Assembly (NCBI GenBank): GCA_003605055.1
Contig: QZKP01000032.1
Coordinates: 1-64,000, forward strand
DNA from: Desulfarculus sp.
Lineage (GTDB): Bacteria; Desulfobacterota; Desulfarculia; Desulfarculales; Desulfarculaceae
Length of the DNA stretch: 64,000 bases
Reading direction: 5' to 3'
Position 1 is the stretch's first letter, and each line of letters opens with the position of its first letter. Shown here one piece after another: positions 1,619 to 37,718 of this stretch. The position numbers were made by a program, and so were the translations under genes. Under the pieces are notes generated by a model. It was not told the origin of the DNA. It did no database searches and worked only from the letters and a program-made list of their open reading frames with translations.

Positions 1619-2410
1619 ATGGAGCTGGGCGGCAGCGAGTTTCTGAGGGGGTGGCGCTGGGTCAGTGGCAGGGGCCGCAATGATTGCCAACTCTGCGCCA
1701 GTCTGCACGGCAAGGAGTTCTATTTTCATCCCACCGCTGGGCAAACCTCTGTGCAGGACATGCCGGACGTGCCCCTGCACCCCAACTGCGACTGCACCAT
1801 TGACCCCATCATGGATCACGAGGCCATGGTCCGGGAGGAGGCCCGGGCAGCAGCCAGGAGAGGCGCCGCCAATGCAGGCAGGGAGGGCTCCGGCCAAAGC
1901 AGCCGGCCGCAGCAACCCAATGATCCCCAGGTCAGCGAATACTACTATAAGGGCAGGAAGGAGTTGTTCGGGCTTGCCTGGTGCAATGACGGCCGTTCGT
2001 GGTTGGATGGGCCGGCATATGGGAATTATGGGGGGCAGAGGTGGAGCAGGGGTAGGAATCCAGATAATATAAGGGAGGATGAGCCTCTAAATTATCAGGT
2101 AGAACCAATAGACAGAATGGATGAGGCTTTTCAAGATCACGATATTGGCTATGAAAACTGTAAAGGCCAAGAAGGGATATATCTCTATCGGTGTCAAATA
2201 GAGGTTGATAGGCGCTTGGTTGACAACCTACGCAGATTAAGTGATGATGGCACCAATTGGGAGAGGGAGTTTAAAGGTCCTGGGGACCGAGAACATGCGA
2301 AGCGATACCGCGACTGGGCTATATGGTATTTTGAGGGAAGGGTTGATCGCTACGATGTGGAGAAAAGCGAAAATTGGGGAGGAGAATATGAAGAAATAGA
2401 GGCACAATAG
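1619..2410 (+). CDS. putative toxin/effector: MuF-type Cys/His motif plus phospholipase A2-like domain
   Basis: The 263-aa product (19 more residues if a TTG at 1562 is used) has two recognisable parts. Near residues 22-59 is CxxC, then a linker with P-L-H-P-N-C-D-C, the pattern at the C-terminus of Mu gpF/SPP1 gp7-type phage head proteins and of polymorphic toxins that borrow that module. Near 132-202 is a PLA2-like core: a calcium-loop-like segment YGNYGGQRWS, the catalytic motif DEAFQDHDIGY (His174-Asp175) and a later EVDRRLVDNL supplying a second Asp (about 197), as in parvoviral and secreted PLA2. Base composition drops to AT-rich over the second half. A lipoprotein gene follows after 33 bp. 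The reading as an antibacterial phospholipase effector is inference; no signal peptide is seen. Confidence 0.6.
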   Translation: MELGGSEFLRGWRWVSGRGRNDCQLCASLHGKEFYFHPTAGQTSVQDMPDVPLHPNCDCTIDPIMDHEAMVREEARAAARRGAANAGREGSGQSSRPQQPNDPQVSEYYYKGRKELFGLAWCNDGRSWLDGPAYGNYGGQRWSRGRNPDNIREDEPLNYQVEPIDRMDEAFQDHDIGYENCKGQEGIYLYRCQIEVDRRLVDNLRRLSDDGTNWEREFKGPGDREHAKRYRDWAIWYFEGRVDRYDVEKSENWGGEYEEIEAQ

Positions 2411-2443
2411 TAATATATAGATACCATAAGGAAGAGGTCAGTC

Positions 2444-3553
2444 GTGCAAAGAAATAAATTGAATATGGTACAAGCTTTTGTACTAATTTTAGCCTTAGGT
2501 ATTTTTTGTACCGCCTGCATATCTCCCTATACGCCATATGAAATTAACTATAAAGCGTCCATACCGGAAGTGTATTGGGCCTCATTTTCACCAAACAATG
2601 ACGATATTGTTTTTTCAATGGGATGGGGCAGCCTCGGCGGCATTTTTCTAATGGACCGGCAAGGCAAAATAGTTAAATGGCTGCGCCGGAATACTAATAA
2701 GTGGTGGAGCAGTCATCCGGTTTTTTCGCCGGATGGCCAATGGATCGCCTTTGTATCTACAATGGCCGATAAGCACGGCGATATATTCATAATGGACAAG
2801 GAAGGAAATAATATTCGCAGATTAACGTCCACGGCTGATTATGACAGAGGTCCGGTCTTTTCGCCGGACGGGAAAAGAATATATTTTGTCCGTTCCAGGT
2901 ATTTCGGCAGCTATTCTCCCGTGGCCAGAAAAGGCCTTCACGAGAATGATATCTTCTATGTGGAGGTTAGTAGCGGCAGGGAGTTTGCGTTAACCGATAA
3001 CAAATTGTATCTACTAGATTCGTTGAATATCCTGCCCAGCGGAGACAAGTTATTGCTGGGCACATATAATCTAGTCCCGAGTATGGGAGGAGTAAAAGGA
3101 CCGCGGGAAAGTCAGAGAGGTTATAATTTGTGGTCAATAAATATTGCCAAACCACACCAATGGACACCGGTTATCCCTAAGTTAACAGTAGCAGCTCCTA
3201 TCAATTACAGTGCCTCTTATGATCCAGTCCTTTCTTTGAATGGTAAATATCTGGTTTTTACCTGTAGAGTAAAAGATGGCTATCAGATATTTATCGCTGA
3301 CATGAACACCATGGAAACGCATAAAATCGATACTTTCATTGGAATGAAGTCTCCAGTAAGTATTTCAATGAAAGCAAAAGAGATTTTGTTTGTCACCATC
3401 TCGCGGTTTCCGCCTTTCCACGTCCGCCAGGAAAGCAATCTCTGGATCGTCAACCGGGACGGCACGGGCCTGCGCAATTTCAGTCTGGACTTCTCGAGGG
3501 TGCTGGCCCCCAAGCAACCAAACAACACCTCGCAGACATCTGCAACCAATTAA
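2444..3553 (+). CDS. TolB/PD40-type beta-propeller lipoprotein, candidate partner or immunity protein
   Basis: The 369-aa product starts at GTG 2444 behind GGAAGAGG. Its N-terminus has a hydrophobic helix (about 8-24) ending in C-T-A-C, so Cys25 is the likely lipidated residue, although the -3 position is not canonical. After it come several WD40-like PD40 blades with the hallmark FSPDG (HPVFSPDGQWIAF, GPVFSPDGKRIYF), as in the TolB C-terminal propeller. It begins 33 bp after the PLA2-like gene, is similarly AT-rich and is followed 13 bp later by a third gene, so the three are probably one transcript. A periplasm-facing lipoprotein next to a phospholipase-like effector would suit an immunity role, as with lipase effectors of type VI secretion. 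That role is inferred, not shown. Confidence 0.6.
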   Translation: MQRNKLNMVQAFVLILALGIFCTACISPYTPYEINYKASIPEVYWASFSPNNDDIVFSMGWGSLGGIFLMDRQGKIVKWLRRNTNKWWSSHPVFSPDGQWIAFVSTMADKHGDIFIMDKEGNNIRRLTSTADYDRGPVFSPDGKRIYFVRSRYFGSYSPVARKGLHENDIFYVEVSSGREFALTDNKLYLLDSLNILPSGDKLLLGTYNLVPSMGGVKGPRESQRGYNLWSINIAKPHQWTPVIPKLTVAAPINYSASYDPVLSLNGKYLVFTCRVKDGYQIFIADMNTMETHKIDTFIGMKSPVSISMKAKEILFVTISRFPPFHVRQESNLWIVNRDGTGLRNFSLDFSRVLAPKQPNNTSQTSATN

Positions 3554-3566
3554 GGGGAGATGGACG

Positions 3567-4226
3567 ATGGACTCCGCGTTGAATCAACTAGCTGCGCAGA
3601 TAAATTCTATCGTTCTTGGCCGGCTAGCAGCCCAGCAAATTCGCGTGCGGGAAAAATGGGAGCCTCAGATAACTGAGTCCCTGGACAGCACTGCCGATGA
3701 ATGCCTGCGGGACATCAAAAAGACAATGGTCCAATACAGGCCGCTATTTGGTGGGCTAGCGACTCCGGCTTTGTTGCAACTGCGGCTGGGATTGAGCTTT
3801 GCCAACATCGTGCGGGAAAATGCGGCACAGGCCAAGGGCCTGCTCCGGGCCATGATCCAGAGCGAGGCCAAGGCTCTCAGCGACATAATCACCCTGAACG
3901 GCCTGGTGGGTGGCCGAGGGGGCCAGAAACCACCGGCCCTGGCCGAGCGCTTGGCCAATGAGTTGGCAGATGGCGCGGCCTTGGATAAAGCGACCGGCAA
4001 GAGCCTGCAACTTTTCAAAAAGCGTGTGTTCGCGGTTCTTGCCGAAGGCGATAGCTCCGAATTAGGTGCTTCGGAGCTTATGGAGCGTCTGGGCGCAGCA
4101 ACCACCTGGTGGCGGGGCCGTCTGCGGACCATCGCCAACACCGTTTTGTACGCTGCGGCCGCACAACTCAGGCGGACCGTGAACGAATACCTTTGGCGAG
4201 GGGCAAGTCAAGCGTCCGGATTTTAA
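3567..4226 (+). CDS. helical protein of unknown function, possibly MuF-like N-terminal half
   Basis: The start is ATG 3567, with GGGGAG at 3554-3559; an upstream in-frame extension overlaps the lipoprotein gene and is not needed. The 219-aa product is predicted to be mainly alpha-helical, without signal peptide or membrane segment. I do not recognise a named family. Its last 45 residues (TWWRGRLRTIANTVLYAAAAQLRR) resemble the region of MuF-type phage portal-associated proteins that lies just before the CxxC/HPNCxC module. That module is missing here but present in the gene at 1619. It ends 14 bp from the convergent peptidase gene. Composition is close to the chromosome, unlike the AT-rich middle gene. 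Confidence 0.5.
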   Translation: MDSALNQLAAQINSIVLGRLAAQQIRVREKWEPQITESLDSTADECLRDIKKTMVQYRPLFGGLATPALLQLRLGLSFANIVRENAAQAKGLLRAMIQSEAKALSDIITLNGLVGGRGGQKPPALAERLANELADGAALDKATGKSLQLFKKRVFAVLAEGDSSELGASELMERLGAATTWWRGRLRTIANTVLYAAAAQLRRTVNEYLWRGASQASGF

Positions 4227-19577: not shown

Positions 19578-20504
19578 ATGGCACACACTGAACACGGTTT
19601 GACCCTGGCCCTGGGCGGCGGCGGAGCCCGTGGTTTCGCCCATGTGGGCGTGCTGGAGGTGCTGGAGCGGCACCAGGTGCCGGTGGAGGGCGTGGTGGGG
19701 GTCAGCGCCGGCGCGGTGGCCGGGGCGGGCTATGCCCTGGGCTTTTCCAACGCCGAGATGCGCGAGCGGGTGTTGGCGTTCAGCCAGAGCTCCCTGGCCC
19801 GGGACCCCCGTCTGCTGGCCATGATGGGCGCCTCCAGCGGCTACAAATGCAAGAGCCTCTCCGACCGGCTAAACCGCCTGTTCAGCCAAGGCATGCTGGT
19901 CAAGTCCTTTTTCCTGGACACCTCTCTGCTGAGCCATGACTTTTTCCACGATATGGTGGCCTTTTTCCTGCCCAAGGTGAACCTGGAGGACACGGCGATT
20001 CCCTTTGCCGCGGTGGCCACGGACATCAAGACCGGCGAGCCGGTGGTGCTGGAGCGCGGCGACCTGCGCCAGGCGGTGCTGGCCTCCTGCGCCGTGCCCG
20101 GGGTGGCCGCGCCGGTGGAGATAGACGGCCGCTGGCTGATGGACGGCGGGGCCTCTCTCCTGGTGCCCACGCCGGTGGCCCGCCAGCGGGCCTCGGGTCC
20201 GGTGCTGGCGGTGAGCGTGGACCGGGACATCATCACCGAGGACCTGCCCGGCCAGTCCCTGGAGTTCTATTTGCGGGCCACGGAGATACAGGGCTTCCAC
20301 TTGGTGCAGACGCTCTTGCAGGAGGCGGACCTGGCCCTGCGGCCGGCCCTGGGCGATATCCACTGGGCCGACTTTGCCAAGGCCGCCTGGATCATGGACC
20401 AGGGCTTTCAGGCCGCCAGCCAGGCCTGGCATAAGCTGGAGTCCCTGCTCAGGCCGGGGCCCTGGTGGCGCCGTTTCTTCGGCCGGGAGGCCGCGGTCCT
20501 GTGA
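19578..20504 (+). CDS. patatin-like phospholipase (RssA type)
   Basis: Patatin enzymes are Ser-Asp dyad lipid acyl hydrolases. The 308-aa product has the oxyanion loop GGGGARG (13-19), the nucleophile GVSAG (Ser43) and the catalytic Asp in the DGG of RWLMDGGAS. There is no signal peptide, so it is probably cytoplasmic or membrane-peripheral. ATG 19578 is chosen because GGGGGTGA at 19561-19568 fits it; TTG 19569 does not. The next gene, rarA, overlaps its stop by 4 bp. Confidence 0.9.
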   Translation: MAHTEHGLTLALGGGGARGFAHVGVLEVLERHQVPVEGVVGVSAGAVAGAGYALGFSNAEMRERVLAFSQSSLARDPRLLAMMGASSGYKCKSLSDRLNRLFSQGMLVKSFFLDTSLLSHDFFHDMVAFFLPKVNLEDTAIPFAAVATDIKTGEPVVLERGDLRQAVLASCAVPGVAAPVEIDGRWLMDGGASLLVPTPVARQRASGPVLAVSVDRDIITEDLPGQSLEFYLRATEIQGFHLVQTLLQEADLALRPALGDIHWADFAKAAWIMDQGFQAASQAWHKLESLLRPGPWWRRFFGREAAVL

Positions 20505-33582: not shown

Positions 33583-33671
33583 GTAGCTGAATGAGGCGGG
33601 ATTCAGCGGCCTCTGATCCTGACCCGGAGAGGGGGCCGGCGTGGCGTTGTCTTTTGCAGCTAGGAGCCTTG

Positions 33672-34535
33672 ATGTCTGAGCAATTCGACCGTTTCGTGGG
33701 CACGGACAAGTACATTGTATCCCCGGAACTCAAGGACGTGGTCAATGTGGCCATTGCCCTGGCCAGGCCCCTGCTGGTTAAGGGCGAGCCGGGCACCGGC
33801 AAGACCCTCCTGGCCCACAACATCGCCCGCGGCCTGAGCAAACGGCTGATCGTGTGGAACATCAAATCCACCACCAAGGCCAAGGACGGCCTGTACGTCT
33901 ATGACACGGTGCAGCGGCTCAATGACTCCCGCTTCGGCACCGGCGATGTCAGCGACATCAAGCGCTACATCCACCTGGGGCAGTTGGGCCAGTCCTTTGC
34001 CAGCCAGGAGCAGGTGGTGCTGCTCATCGACGAGGTGGACAAGGCCGACCTCGAGTTTCCCAACGACCTGCTCAACGAGCTGGACGAGATGAGCTTCTTC
34101 GTCATGGAAACCGAGGAGACCGTGGCCGCCTTGCAGCGGCCCATCGTGGTGATCACCTCCAACTCCGAAAAGGAGCTGCCCGACGCCTTCCTGCGGCGCT
34201 GTGTGTTCCATTACATCGAGTTCCCGGATCCGGAACTGATGCGACGCATCGTGGGCGTGCACTATCCGGAGCTGGAGGAAAAGCTGCTCAAGGAGGTGCT
34301 CAAGCGCTTCTACTGGCTGCGCCAGGTGGAGGGATTCCGCAAAAAGCCCTCCACCAGTGAGCTCCTGGACTGGATTCAGGGGCTGTTGGCCGGGGGGGTG
34401 TCGCCCGAGACCGTGGCCAAGGAGCTGCCCTTTGCCGGTGCGCTGATCAAGAAGGAGCAGGACATGGAGGTGCTGGAGGCGGCCATGGCCCGCAGCGCCG
34501 GCGGAGGCCGGGTGGGCCTCAGGAGCCGGTATTAA
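33672..34535 (+). CDS. MoxR-type AAA+ ATPase
   Basis: The 287-aa ATPase has Walker A GEPGTGKT (38-45), Walker B VVLLIDEVD (about 115-123) and sensor 1 ITSNSEKELPDAFLRRC. The last includes the Arg finger region of the MoxR/dynein-related group. MoxR ATPases act as chaperones that load metals or activate enzymes together with a VWA protein. ATG 33672 has TAGGAG upstream; the frame open to 33591 is a longer, unsupported start. A CoxE-type VWA gene, the expected partner, lies 2 kb downstream beyond tag and an AT-rich gene. Confidence 0.88.
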   Translation: MSEQFDRFVGTDKYIVSPELKDVVNVAIALARPLLVKGEPGTGKTLLAHNIARGLSKRLIVWNIKSTTKAKDGLYVYDTVQRLNDSRFGTGDVSDIKRYIHLGQLGQSFASQEQVVLLIDEVDKADLEFPNDLLNELDEMSFFVMETEETVAALQRPIVVITSNSEKELPDAFLRRCVFHYIEFPDPELMRRIVGVHYPELEEKLLKEVLKRFYWLRQVEGFRKKPSTSELLDWIQGLLAGGVSPETVAKELPFAGALIKKEQDMEVLEAAMARSAGGGRVGLRSRY

Positions 34536-34548
34536 AGGCAGGCGTTCG

Positions 34549-35112
34549 GTGGCCCGCTGTCCCTGGGGCGAGGGCGACGAACTCTACCGGGAGTATCACG
34601 ACCGCGAATGGGGCGTGCCGGTGCACGACGACCGCCGCCACTTTGAAATGCTGGTGCTGGAGGGCTTTCAGGCGGGCCTTAGCTGGCTGACTGTCTTGAA
34701 AAAGCGGGAGAGCTTCCGGGCCGCCTTTGACAACTTCGCGCCCGCCAAGGTGGCGGCCTACGGGCCGGCCAAGATCAAGGCCCTGCTAGCCGACCAGGAC
34801 ATCGTGCGCAACCGGCGCAAGATCGAGGCGGCGGTAAAAAACGCCAAGGTCTTCCTGGCCATCCAGAAAGAGTTCGGCTCCTTCGACCACTACATCTGGG
34901 CCTTCGTGGACCATAAGCCGGTGCAGAACTCTTTCCGCAAACTTTCCGAGATACCGGCCCAGAGCGAGGTATCACGGGCCATCTCGAAAGACTTGAAGAA
35001 GCGGGGCATGAACTTCGTGGGGCCCACCATCATCTACGCCCACATGCAGGCCATCGGCATGGTCAACGACCACCTGGTGAACTGCCCGCGCCACAGGGAG
35101 TTAAGAGTATAG
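34549..35112 (+). CDS. tag: DNA-3-methyladenine glycosylase I
   Basis: It excises 3-methyladenine from alkylated DNA. The 187-aa protein matches E. coli Tag residue for residue at its key sites: the zinc snap Cys4, His17, His175, Cys179 and the catalytic Glu38. The W-G-V-P block and NFVGPTIIYAHMQAIGMVNDH are typical. GTG 34549 begins 13 bp after the AAA gene. Its place between AAA and VWA genes has no obvious functional logic. Confidence 0.95.
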   Translation: MARCPWGEGDELYREYHDREWGVPVHDDRRHFEMLVLEGFQAGLSWLTVLKKRESFRAAFDNFAPAKVAAYGPAKIKALLADQDIVRNRRKIEAAVKNAKVFLAIQKEFGSFDHYIWAFVDHKPVQNSFRKLSEIPAQSEVSRAISKDLKKRGMNFVGPTIIYAHMQAIGMVNDHLVNCPRHRELRV

Positions 35113-35172
35113 GTAGACGTATTTGTGTTGCATTAGGCACCGGAAGACCTAACTTGCAAAAGGGGGGAGCAA

Positions 35173-36540
35173 ATGATTAAGAACGAAATAACTAAAATAA
35201 TTAAGCATTTTATACAGCCTACCGATAAAATAGTAATTGATGAAGTGGCAGCGAACAATGTAGGCCTTGAGTTTTCGTCGAAAAAAGGCACCACGAAGTT
35301 CAATTTGCAGTTTACCAATAAAGTGTTTAAAATAAAAATAAACAAGTTAGATATTAACAAAGAAGTTGCAAGAATGCTAGCAAAACAATTAGCAGAGGAT
35401 TTAAAAAAATTTGACGACCCTAATCCGGAGGCAAGGGCCTGCGATTATTTGCAAAGTACGACGCGCAGAGTAATCTCTCGATATTTGGCAAAGAAACTCT
35501 GCCAAAACGAAATATTTTGGAATGTTGTGATCCGAAAGGTTGATGATGCTTCCAATCTAAGTTATGAAGGCAAGAACTCTAGGCCGTCGATAATATTTTT
35601 AAAGGACACTAGTTTATTGTCTGAAAATAATATTAAGAAATTCGCTGTCAAAATAAATTTATTAGAAAGTGATTTGCTTGAAGAGACTTGGGTTAGAGCT
35701 GTGGTAGAAGGAGAAAGAACAGCCTTCTTTTCTGAATCTGACGATGGATCTATAGATGGTATTCTTTCATTAGTTGACGTGGTTAATAGTGAAATTGAAA
35801 TACCAGAAAAGCAAGAAGGCACTGCTGCGCCGCATATTTCCTTATTGCAAATTCAAAATTTATTGCAAGATAGTGGGATAGCAATACACACATCGAAGAC
35901 CGGCGATATTTTCATCATGGTAGGTAAAGAGCAAGCTTTTCAAAAGAGTGGTGGTTATTGGCGGTTTTATGATTATAAAAAAATACTCAAAACTGTGAAA
36001 ACGAAAATAAATAGCTATTCTGGATTATTTTATGCGATAGAAATAGAAGAAAATAGCCTTGTCCTTCGCAACCTAATAAGGTCATGTATTGATTTGTCTT
36101 ATGAGCGACAAGGCGCTTTGTTTTGGTTGTTAGATAAAAAGTTAATCGACGTGATTGATGATACGGTTACGTTGCCTGGAAACAATGACAACTCTCCCCA
36201 TAAAAATTTATTATCAGCCTTAAAAGGCGCTAATATAACCGAGTGGTCCACGAGAAACATAATGAATGCCGCAGCAGCAGTTGATGGAGCAGTTGTGATC
36301 AATGCAAGCGGTAAAATTATAGATGTCGGCCATACAGTAACGGAAATCGAAATATATAATAAAAAGACTAGACCTAAAATAATTTTAACAGACGATCAAA
36401 AGAAAGAATATGAGGATTTACCTGGTAAAAAATCGAAGGCTGCATATAGAGGCAGTTTCCTCGGGCTGACCATAAAAGTTTCAGAGGATGGGCCTATAAG
36501 TATGTATCTTAAAGGCAATCTAATAGCCTCTTACGGTTAG
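35173..36540 (+). CDS. AT-rich protein with divergent DisA-type (DAC) nucleotide cyclase domain
   Basis: This 455-aa gene is clearly AT-rich (codons such as AAA, ATA and TTA dominate) while all neighbours are GC-rich, a sign of recent transfer. ATG 35173 follows GGGGGGAG. The C-terminal 150 residues align by pattern with diadenylate cyclase domains: GALFWLLD (314-321), the hallmark DGA in VDGAVVINASGKI (371-373), then GKKSKAA (418-424) where DisA/CdaA have GTRHRAA, and VSEDGPISMY (436-445) matching VSEETGxIS. The RHR motif thus becomes KSK. About 300 upstream residues form one or more unknown domains, possibly of the DACNV-type sensor class described for nucleotide-based conflict systems. Catalysis and product are unproven. 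Confidence 0.62.
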   Translation: MIKNEITKIIKHFIQPTDKIVIDEVAANNVGLEFSSKKGTTKFNLQFTNKVFKIKINKLDINKEVARMLAKQLAEDLKKFDDPNPEARACDYLQSTTRRVISRYLAKKLCQNEIFWNVVIRKVDDASNLSYEGKNSRPSIIFLKDTSLLSENNIKKFAVKINLLESDLLEETWVRAVVEGERTAFFSESDDGSIDGILSLVDVVNSEIEIPEKQEGTAAPHISLLQIQNLLQDSGIAIHTSKTGDIFIMVGKEQAFQKSGGYWRFYDYKKILKTVKTKINSYSGLFYAIEIEENSLVLRNLIRSCIDLSYERQGALFWLLDKKLIDVIDDTVTLPGNNDNSPHKNLLSALKGANITEWSTRNIMNAAAAVDGAVVINASGKIIDVGHTVTEIEIYNKKTRPKIILTDDQKKEYEDLPGKKSKAAYRGSFLGLTIKVSEDGPISMYLKGNLIASYG

Positions 36541-36545
36541 GTGAT

Positions 36546-37718
36546 ATGTTCATCGACCTTTTCTACACCCTCAAGTCCCTCAAGGTGCCGGTGTCCATTA
36601 CCGAGTGGATGACCCTGATGCAGGCCCTGGATGAGGGCTACGCCAAGTCCAGCCTGACCGCCTTCTACTACCTGGCCCGGGCCATACTCATCAAGTCCGA
36701 GGCCTTCTACGACCAGTACGACCAGGCCTTTGCCCACGTGTTCAAGGACGCGGAGCTGCCGGCGGACATCCGCCAGGAAATCCTGGACTGGCTGGCCGAC
36801 CCCCAGAACCGCCTGGAGCTGCCGCCCGAGGAATTGGAGCGGCTGCAAAAGCTGGACCTGGAGGATCTGCGGCGGGAGCTGGAGAAGCGCCTGGCCGAGC
36901 AAAAGGAGCGCCACGACGGCGGCAGCCGTTGGATCGGCACCGGCGGCACCAGCCCCTTCGGCCACTCCGGGGCCCACCCCTCGGGCATCCGCATCGGCGG
37001 GCCGGGCGGGGGGGGCATGGCCGTGCAGGTCGCGGCCGAGCGGCGCTTCCGCAACTACCGCACGGACGTTACCCTGGACGTGCGCCAGATCAAGCTGGCG
37101 CTCAAGAAGCTGCGGCAGTTCGCCAAGGAGGGGCCTGAGGACTGGCTGGACCTGGACGAGACTATTGACCAGACCTGCCGCAACGCCGGCGAGATCGAGC
37201 TGGTCTTCACCCGCGAGCGCAAGAACACGGTCAAGGTGCTCCTGCTCATGGACTCGGGCGGGTCAATGAATCCCTACGCCCGCCTGGTGGACCGGCTGTT
37301 CTCCGCCGCCCACCAGATGACCCACTTCCGGGACCTGAAGGCCTACTACTTCCACAACTGCGTTTATCAGGATGTGTACCAGGACATGTACAACTCGGTG
37401 AGCCTGCCCACCGGCGGCCTGCTGCACAACCTGAGCCAGGATTACAAGGTGATTCTGGTGGGCGACGCCTTCATGTCCCCCTCGGAACTGCTGTCCGCGG
37501 GCGGGGCCATTGACTACTACTACCACAACGACACGCCCGGCCTGGATTGGCTGGAGCGCATCGCCGACCACTTCCGCTACTGCGTGTGGCTCAACCCCAT
37601 GCCCGAGCGGGCCTGGATGCACCCCACCATCAGCACCATCAGCAAGGTCTTCCCCATGTTCCCCCTGACCCTGGACGGCCTGGACGACGCCATCAAGGCC
37701 TTGATGGTGCGGCACTAG
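36546..37718 (+). CDS. VWA domain (CoxE-like) protein, partner of MoxR ATPase
   Basis: The 390-aa protein has a helical N-terminus, a charged linker (95-125), a Gly-rich stretch (130-158) and a C-terminal VWA domain. The MIDAS motif is D236-S-G-G-S240 in LLLMDSGGSM, the CoxE/YehP-like variant of DxSxS. These proteins work with MoxR ATPases in metalloenzyme maturation or protein remodelling. It starts 5 bp after the AT-rich gene and ends at a strong terminator. The AAA partner at 33672 is separated by two unrelated genes. Confidence 0.87.
   Translation: MFIDLFYTLKSLKVPVSITEWMTLMQALDEGYAKSSLTAFYYLARAILIKSEAFYDQYDQAFAHVFKDAELPADIRQEILDWLADPQNRLELPPEELERLQKLDLEDLRRELEKRLAEQKERHDGGSRWIGTGGTSPFGHSGAHPSGIRIGGPGGGGMAVQVAAERRFRNYRTDVTLDVRQIKLALKKLRQFAKEGPEDWLDLDETIDQTCRNAGEIELVFTRERKNTVKVLLLMDSGGSMNPYARLVDRLFSAAHQMTHFRDLKAYYFHNCVYQDVYQDMYNSVSLPTGGLLHNLSQDYKVILVGDAFMSPSELLSAGGAIDYYYHNDTPGLDWLERIADHFRYCVWLNPMPERAWMHPTISTISKVFPMFPLTLDGLDDAIKALMVRH

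Follow-up and report, generated by a model that had tools for sequence, protein, structure and literature searches.

A horizontally acquired Desulfarculus gene encodes a divergent diadenylate cyclase-fold protein with a possible role in mobile nucleotide signalling

Introduction

A single AT-rich gene stands among GC-richer neighbours on a contig of Desulfarculus sp., a member of the Desulfobacterota. The stretch analysed here, referred to as the window, comprises 64,000 nucleotides (assembly GCA_003605055.1, contig QZKP01000032.1, positions 1 to 64,000 of the forward strand), and the gene occupies 35173..36540 on the + strand. An earlier note, made from the sequence alone, read it as a recent foreign arrival with a variant diadenylate cyclase (DAC) domain behind a sensor-like region, and proposed a stand-alone role in defence or signalling. 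DAC proteins have reportedly been predicted in conflict systems before. The locus raises the questions of whether the 455-aa product is a DAC-fold protein at all, whether its altered active site could still make a nucleotide signal, and whether it belongs to mobile DNA that acts against phage.

Results

The open reading frame begins with ATG and runs for 455 codons, with the same start, stop and strand as in the earlier note, and a purine-rich stretch that resembles a ribosome-binding site can be read just upstream (35158..35169, + strand). On the evidence of the frame itself, its relatives and a structure model, the product consists of an N-terminal module followed by a C-terminal variant DAC domain. 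All of the motifs previously listed were located in it: DGA (residues 371-373; 36283..36291, + strand), GALFWLLD (starting at residue 314), VSEDG (residues 436-440) and the GxxxKAA segment, which reads GKKSKAA in place of G-x-RHR-AA (residues 418-424; 36424..36444, + strand). The sharp AT bias was likewise reproduced. GC content falls to 0.387 at 35001-36000, compared to 0.62-0.63 in the two preceding kilobases, and the three codon positions have GC contents of 0.42, 0.32 and 0.34, compared to third-position values of 0.86-0.94 in five neighbours. A second GC dip, to 0.445 and 0.508, was seen at 2001-4000 of the window.

The insert is bordered on the left by tag, which encodes DNA-3-methyladenine glycosylase I (34549..35112, + strand; PF03352, E 2.2e-84), and on the right by a gene for a VWA_CoxE-like protein (36546..37718, + strand; PF05762, E 1.5e-8). 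Upstream lies a MoxR-like ATPase gene (33591-34535) that, judged by synteny, forms a conserved pair with the VWA gene. The VWA gene was present in 17 of 20 searched genomes of the host's family. In nine of the 17 the VWA gene directly adjoins the MoxR-like ATPase gene, and in four congeners tag separates the two; in one genome a different gene lies upstream, in another a contig end interrupts the region, and one is the host, with tag and the 455-aa gene. The last, congener G045, has tag and an AT-rich gene for a 414-aa protein (GC 0.42; L073:1949-3193) on the opposite strand. This gene has a signal-peptide-like start by eye, has no Pfam match at E 0.01 and is unrelated to the 455-aa gene. Two species have thus received different AT-rich genes in the tag-VWA gap, which seems to be a site where single foreign genes land. 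Together with its AT-richness, the gap without the 455-aa gene in congeners indicates that the gene is a foreign insert, horizontally acquired between tag and the VWA gene, as had been proposed.

Repeats around the insert were only short two-copy matches, with no clear border repeats. Scans returned seven promoter-like sites (4.3 expected) and three terminator-like sites (1.9 expected), which is little above chance; no promoter-like site was found between tag and the 455-aa gene, so the gene may be transcribed as part of the operon. The MoxR-like ATPase/VWA pair resembles MadB (E 6.5e-32, 110.9 bits, cut-off 475) and MadC (E 0.01). Since it is conserved across the host's family, the pair is probably housekeeping, and none of the gene's neighbours is a known defence gene by Pfam or NCBIfam. 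The 455-aa gene is present in a single copy, and with tag and the VWA gene for neighbours it is the stand-alone gene that the earlier note had suspected.

Elsewhere, the host genome contains an ordinary DAC gene. SMODS had no match in this genome, which is 94% complete, and patatin had three matches, none adjacent and the nearest about 15 kb away. The patatin match at 19605-20180 was rejected as a partner, given its GC content of 0.68 and, by eye, its RssA-type housekeeping look. With an ordinary DAC, no SMODS match and no adjacent patatin in the host, any defence would be exercised by the gene alone, via an unlinked effector or via host c-di-AMP; since no effector or CD-NTase adjoins the gene, an unlinked partner or host c-di-AMP would be needed.

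An insert of this kind could be the decaying remnant of a mobile element that no longer holds a functional gene. Its AT-richness, the absence of an effector alongside and the lack of any match to its protein in 62 other genomes of the host's class (single-sequence search, E 1e-3) would suit such a remnant. The intact frame of 455 codons with a start site, its near full-length alignment to relatives, the conserved motifs and the clean fit between tag and the VWA gene all speak against it, however, and we consider decay very improbable.

To place the protein, relatives were collected from several sources. A single-protein search of 395 genomes of the phylum gave matches in 31 at E <= 0.1, the host's own genome included and many of them due to chance. 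Three candidates (L014, L016 and L028) were rejected as CorC/CBS proteins, and L017-L027, L029 and L030 were left out of the family as weak single-stretch matches. Single-sequence searches with the 455-aa protein found no relative in plasmid, phage, viral-contig or genome-contig collections. A tightened profile retrieved five loci from the genome-contig collection, among them L041, which is the same gene as L002, and L042, a 61-residue piece at a contig edge. The viral-contig collection yielded only L031 with profiles or relatives as queries, and relatives as queries retrieved three plasmid records and one putative 'phage' record from the phage and plasmid collections. The relatives were sorted into group A (scattered), group B (chromosomes of the same phylum), group C (Pseudomonadota) and group D (one genus of the same phylum). 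In the tree, the 455-aa protein is a long branch beside groups A and D (support 92/92, short of the value at which the program calls a branch firm), and its identity to any row of the family alignment is at most 23%. In this unnamed family, a DAC-fold domain follows an N-terminal module some 285 residues long.

When the 455-aa protein was compared directly with known models, its DAC identity stayed below threshold. Its match to the Pfam DAC model (PF02457) had an E of 0.081 and 13 bits, below the cut-off of 27, and covered residues 352-387 only; DAC and UPF0180 were the only Pfam models listed at E up to 1. There was no NCBIfam or PADLOC match at E up to 1, and the PHROGs scan yielded a single line (E 0.24). 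The protein scored 9.3 bits against a profile of 16 ordinary DACs, below the 15.4 bits reached by the best of 2,000 shuffles. Adiponectin, the sole phmmer match among PDB sequences (E 2.8e-5), was rejected as the sum of three weak repeats of 7.5 bits each.

The relatives supplied the link. With the 455-aa protein excluded from each profile, it was scored at 81.0 bits by groups A and D together (11 rows; E 7.1e-24; residues 3-387 and 420-447), at 38.5 bits by group B (seven rows; residues 229-455) and at 29.9 bits by group C (six rows; residues 67-448), and among 2,001 controls made by shuffling or reversal the highest scores were 6.8, 8.5 and 6.1 bits, respectively. PF02457 matched three of 13 scanned relatives, all below the curated cut-off (L031, E 8.4e-6; L004, E 6.6e-4; L015, E 4.4e-3). 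An eight-row family profile that included the 455-aa protein retrieved ten ordinary DACs from the 395 genomes of the phylum (E 3.8e-9 to 8.9e-7), and profile-profile comparison of the family with ordinary DACs gave a probability of 96% over 134 columns, whether or not the 455-aa protein was included. Because these intermediate relatives bridge to ordinary DACs, the DAC likeness of the protein is above chance. PF02457 alone fell short of its cut-off, and the profiles of the relatives made the connection.

Structure prediction agreed. The AlphaFold model, based on 24 aligned sequences, had a pTM of 0.77 and a mean pLDDT of 73.8, was weak at residues 203-219, 330-338 and 390-402, and showed a DAC fold. 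Foldseek and the profile-profile comparison place this domain at residues ~286-455 (36028..36537, + strand). Foldseek matched 52 PDB chains at E <= 0.001, and the best 50 of the 52 were all diadenylate cyclases; the best, 4rv7_A, had an E of 1.2e-5, a probability of 1.00, a TM score of 0.56 by target length and a high rmsd of 6.9. Among the best 50 of the 52 were CdaA, DacA, CdaM, 2fb5 and 3c1y, the last of which we take to be DisA. The 2fb5 chain is a CdaS homologue (PMC8573169). A search of a viral structure library with the model gave nothing at E 0.001. When profiles were run against PDB sequences, the 24-row family profile reached 2fb5 at E 0.012, 37jy at 0.91, a bromodomain at 1.2 and the diadenylate cyclase 8ofg at 1.4; no DAC was listed when the profile was confined to groups A and D, nor was one found in the PDB with the L031 domain. 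The group profiles, the Foldseek matches and the profile-profile comparison bear out the variant DAC domain that had been claimed, and we have little doubt that the protein has a DAC fold and belongs to the family.

Eight residues of the domain (Asp371, Gly372, Gly418, Gly431, Lys435, Ser437, Asp439 and Gly440) are invariant in 24/24 rows. The alignment upheld the reading of KSK at the RHR place, where two basic residues are kept. Ordinary DACs had RH in 16/16 and the full RHR in 4/16, the 16 having been chosen by a pattern that demands R and then H or Y. In 15 family rows the His of RH was found in none, and the Arg was kept in 12; Gly replaces it in two group C rows and Lys in the 455-aa protein. 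In a study of M. tuberculosis DacA, a DisA-type enzyme, both ATP binding and activity were lost when RHR was replaced by AAA, and a change of the Gly of DGA in the same enzyme did not abolish activity (PMC3328451). Given the loss of function on RHR replacement, KSK may be inactive, and catalysis by the 455-aa protein can be called only putative.

These residues bear on the possibility that the protein is a pseudo-cyclase that has lost catalysis and serves as a nucleotide or cyclic-dinucleotide sensor, a sponge or a regulatory subunit, for example by reading host c-di-AMP. The altered RH position across the family is what a pseudo-cyclase would show, and an ordinary DAC gene is already present in the host. 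The invariance of Asp371, Gly372, Ser437, Asp439 and Gly440, however, suggests from the alignment that the nucleotide pocket is kept, and KSK retains basic charge at two places. In addition, the 37jy chain, which is named a synthase, has GGR at the RHR place, although its match to the family is weak (E 0.91). We regard a pseudo-cyclase as somewhat unlikely and keep to a signalling protein with a putatively active DAC domain.

The N-terminal half (residues ~1-285) had been described as about 300 residues of unknown, sensor-like sequence. It does precede the DAC domain, yet it is not peculiar to this protein, being common to groups A and D, and it may be of DAC origin itself. YEG or a near variant stands at residues 131-133, and Trp263 is invariant (24/24 and 15/15 rows). 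Pooled profiles of residues 105-285 gave alignments that span 66 columns for the C-terminal half, with scores of 26.2 and 33.5, and 139-140 columns for ordinary DACs, with scores of 28.9 and 22.8. In each of the four comparisons 0/100 column shuffles reached the score, the highest being 17.3; the hhalign probabilities were low, at 4, 16, 23 and 58%. In tests with single groups, four of 12 beat all 30 shuffles, one of these aligning as expected over 64 columns and the others over 13, 18 and 37. In the AlphaFold model, helices and strands of this half follow one another in an order that, by eye, fits a DAC. Residues ~105-285 (35485..36027, + strand) may thus be a worn-down second DAC domain, a lead given that the single-group tests were mostly negative.

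Ordinary DACs need two DAC domains from two chains. Should the N-terminal half prove to be a second DAC domain, the degenerate copy would pack head-to-head with the C-terminal one in a built-in pseudo-heterodimer, which would be a new way of building a two-site cyclase. Mobile members might then drive or restrain the phospholipase or SLATT effectors found beside certain relatives (in G667 and Crenobacter, respectively; see below). That the family are single-chain two-DAC enzymes whose mobile members make the signal of a CD-NTase-free immunity is a speculative proposal that we consider unlikely.

The genes next to the relatives were called by a longest-ORF script; ten were scanned with Pfam and one with PADLOC, and the others were named by eye. 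Of the scattered group A loci, 11 were read; L042, which would have been the twelfth, was dropped as a 61-residue piece at a contig edge. Four of the 11 lie beside defence genes, four beside mobile genes or on a plasmid and three beside neither, counts that are biased towards mobile settings by the three loci taken from the plasmid collection (L117, L118 and L119). In Massilia (L038), the relative is convergent to CBASS genes (patatin, a DncV-like CD-NTase and one unmatched gene), and on an Agrobacterium vitis plasmid (L117) it is convergent to CBASS genes annotated as patatin, a DncV-like enzyme, ThiF and Mov34. A SLATT_5 gene lies directly upstream in Crenobacter (L039; PF18160, E 4e-34). 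The fourth, L076 of G329, lies between hsdM and hsdS (by Pfam; hsdR by eye), with about 1.5 kb before hsdS that has no assigned gene. Among the mobile settings, L077 is near an integrase (by Pfam), L040 is near a transposase-like gene (by eye), L118 is near insertion sequences, its product stopping ahead of the RHR place, and L119 is on a plasmid. No defence or mobile neighbour was found for L041, L074 and L120. Judged by eye, the viral-collection contig that carries L031 has integrase, HNH and terminase-like ORFs.

One group C outlier, in G667, is AT-rich (GC 0.34) and stands 94 bases before a phospholipase gene, with which it forms an AT-rich pair (L083:8422-10981). The phospholipase matches a PADLOC model named 'Effector' and described as a phospholipase (E 5e-158), presumably a CBASS effector model, and transposase-like genes flank the pair on both sides (by eye). 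SMODS was not found in the G667 genome at E 0.01. Since the SMODS model scores even the Massilia CD-NTase below its cut-off (E 4.5e-5), a distant CD-NTase in G667 could be missed. PADLOC gave no model match for nine relatives at E up to 0.01.

Other branches occupy settled chromosomal positions. Group D (L121-L124) lies between a gene for a membrane-sensor-like protein of about 750 aa and rpoB in 4/4 loci, by eye; these neighbours possibly indicate a link to stress signalling, and a SpoIIE-type phosphatase is no more than our guess. A STAS-like gene was seen next in three of the four loci, also by eye. Two of the four group B loci read have yraN- and nitrilase-like neighbours in common, and two of the three group C loci read have upstream neighbours in common, one of which has a transposase-like ORF nearby (both by eye). 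In view of these positions in groups B, C and D we dropped the idea that the family as a whole is devoted to defence, and defence is not a family-wide property.

Settled positions would also suit a signalling gene unrelated to phage that arrived with other AT-rich DNA and is expressed from the moxR-tag-VWA operon. The constant place of group D beside rpoB and the shared neighbours in groups B and C are in keeping with this, as is congener G048, whose group A relative (GC 0.46) lies elsewhere in its genome and is likewise alone. The defence or mobile settings of eight of the 11 group A loci, three of them from the plasmid collection, argue against it, as does the fact that the 455-aa gene is itself scattered and AT-rich, like many group A relatives. 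A phage-unrelated signalling gene is in our view unlikely. The proposed defence role has thus fared unevenly: some relatives adjoin CBASS, SLATT, phospholipase or type I restriction genes and others are settled, and the link is one of association. Because some relatives adjoin anti-virus defence genes, the 455-aa protein may belong to a little-known family of immune signalling proteins.

Discussion

We tentatively read the 455-aa gene as a mobile nucleotide-signalling protein of a DAC-fold family, perhaps for defence. A role in phage defence, to which association alone points, is comparably tentative. Under this reading, the DAC domain would bind a nucleoside triphosphate and, with KSK in place of RHR, make a cyclic or linear (di)nucleotide, and the N-terminal module would set the timing of synthesis. 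During phage infection, the nucleotide would turn an effector on or keep it off. For relatives, this effector would be the adjacent phospholipase, SLATT protein or CBASS operon; the 455-aa protein might act with an unlinked partner or feed the host c-di-AMP network.

Among characterised cyclases, CdaA/DacA, CdaS, CdaM and DisA (PF02457) share the fold, DGA and VSE with the 455-aa protein, which differs in having KSK for RHR and another N-terminal half, and whose direct match to them is not significant. Panoptoo PanS synthase (37jy, a name taken from the PDB record only) has a DG motif and, as in relatives, GGR at the RHR place. It matches the 24-row family profile weakly, as given above, and since it has only 147 residues it has no room for the N-terminal module. 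No publication bearing the name Panoptoo PanS was found among the matches listed.

CBASS and Panoptes pair a synthase of cyclic dinucleotides with an effector that is a membrane protein or a lipase, which resembles the loci of some relatives; in Panoptes, a constitutive dinucleotide restrains a membrane effector (PMC12657218). In those systems, however, the synthase is a CD-NTase or mCpol and not of DAC fold, and the 455-aa gene has no adjacent effector.

The closest precedent for a DAC in phage defence is DS-2, found with DefensePredictor, which combines a DAC with a phospholipase and a cGAS-like enzyme. According to that report, phage defence was lost when either of two predicted catalytic residues of the DAC was mutated, 15 of 30 DAC homologues lay beside CBASS, and no work before DS-2 had validated DACs in phage defence, their association with it being credited to a review (PMC13092281). 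The model for the DS-2 DAC, NCBIfam NF053872 (DS2_3_antiphage; cut-off 630 bits), was found in one of 398 Pseudomonadota genomes at E 1e-5, in a broken gene. The DS-2 DAC copy has DGT, SRYNS and VISED where DGA, RHR and VSE stand. Its C-terminal piece scored 33.2 against the family of the 455-aa protein, compared to 19.8 for the best of 30 shuffles, and its N-terminal piece scored 20.6, no better than the best of 30 shuffles (20.5). The 455-aa protein had no NF053872 match at E up to 1, and two relatives matched only at E 0.014 and 0.0057, so that its likeness to the DS-2 DAC is weak. Whereas DS-2 joins three genes, with a phospholipase and a CD-NTase, the 455-aa gene stands alone between tag and the VWA gene. 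The DAC of DS-2 works inside one three-gene system; a wider DAC-fold family with an altered active site, scattered AT-rich members and pairings with lipase or pore-type genes, no CD-NTase lying alongside, would point to a DAC-based branch of bacterial immune signalling.
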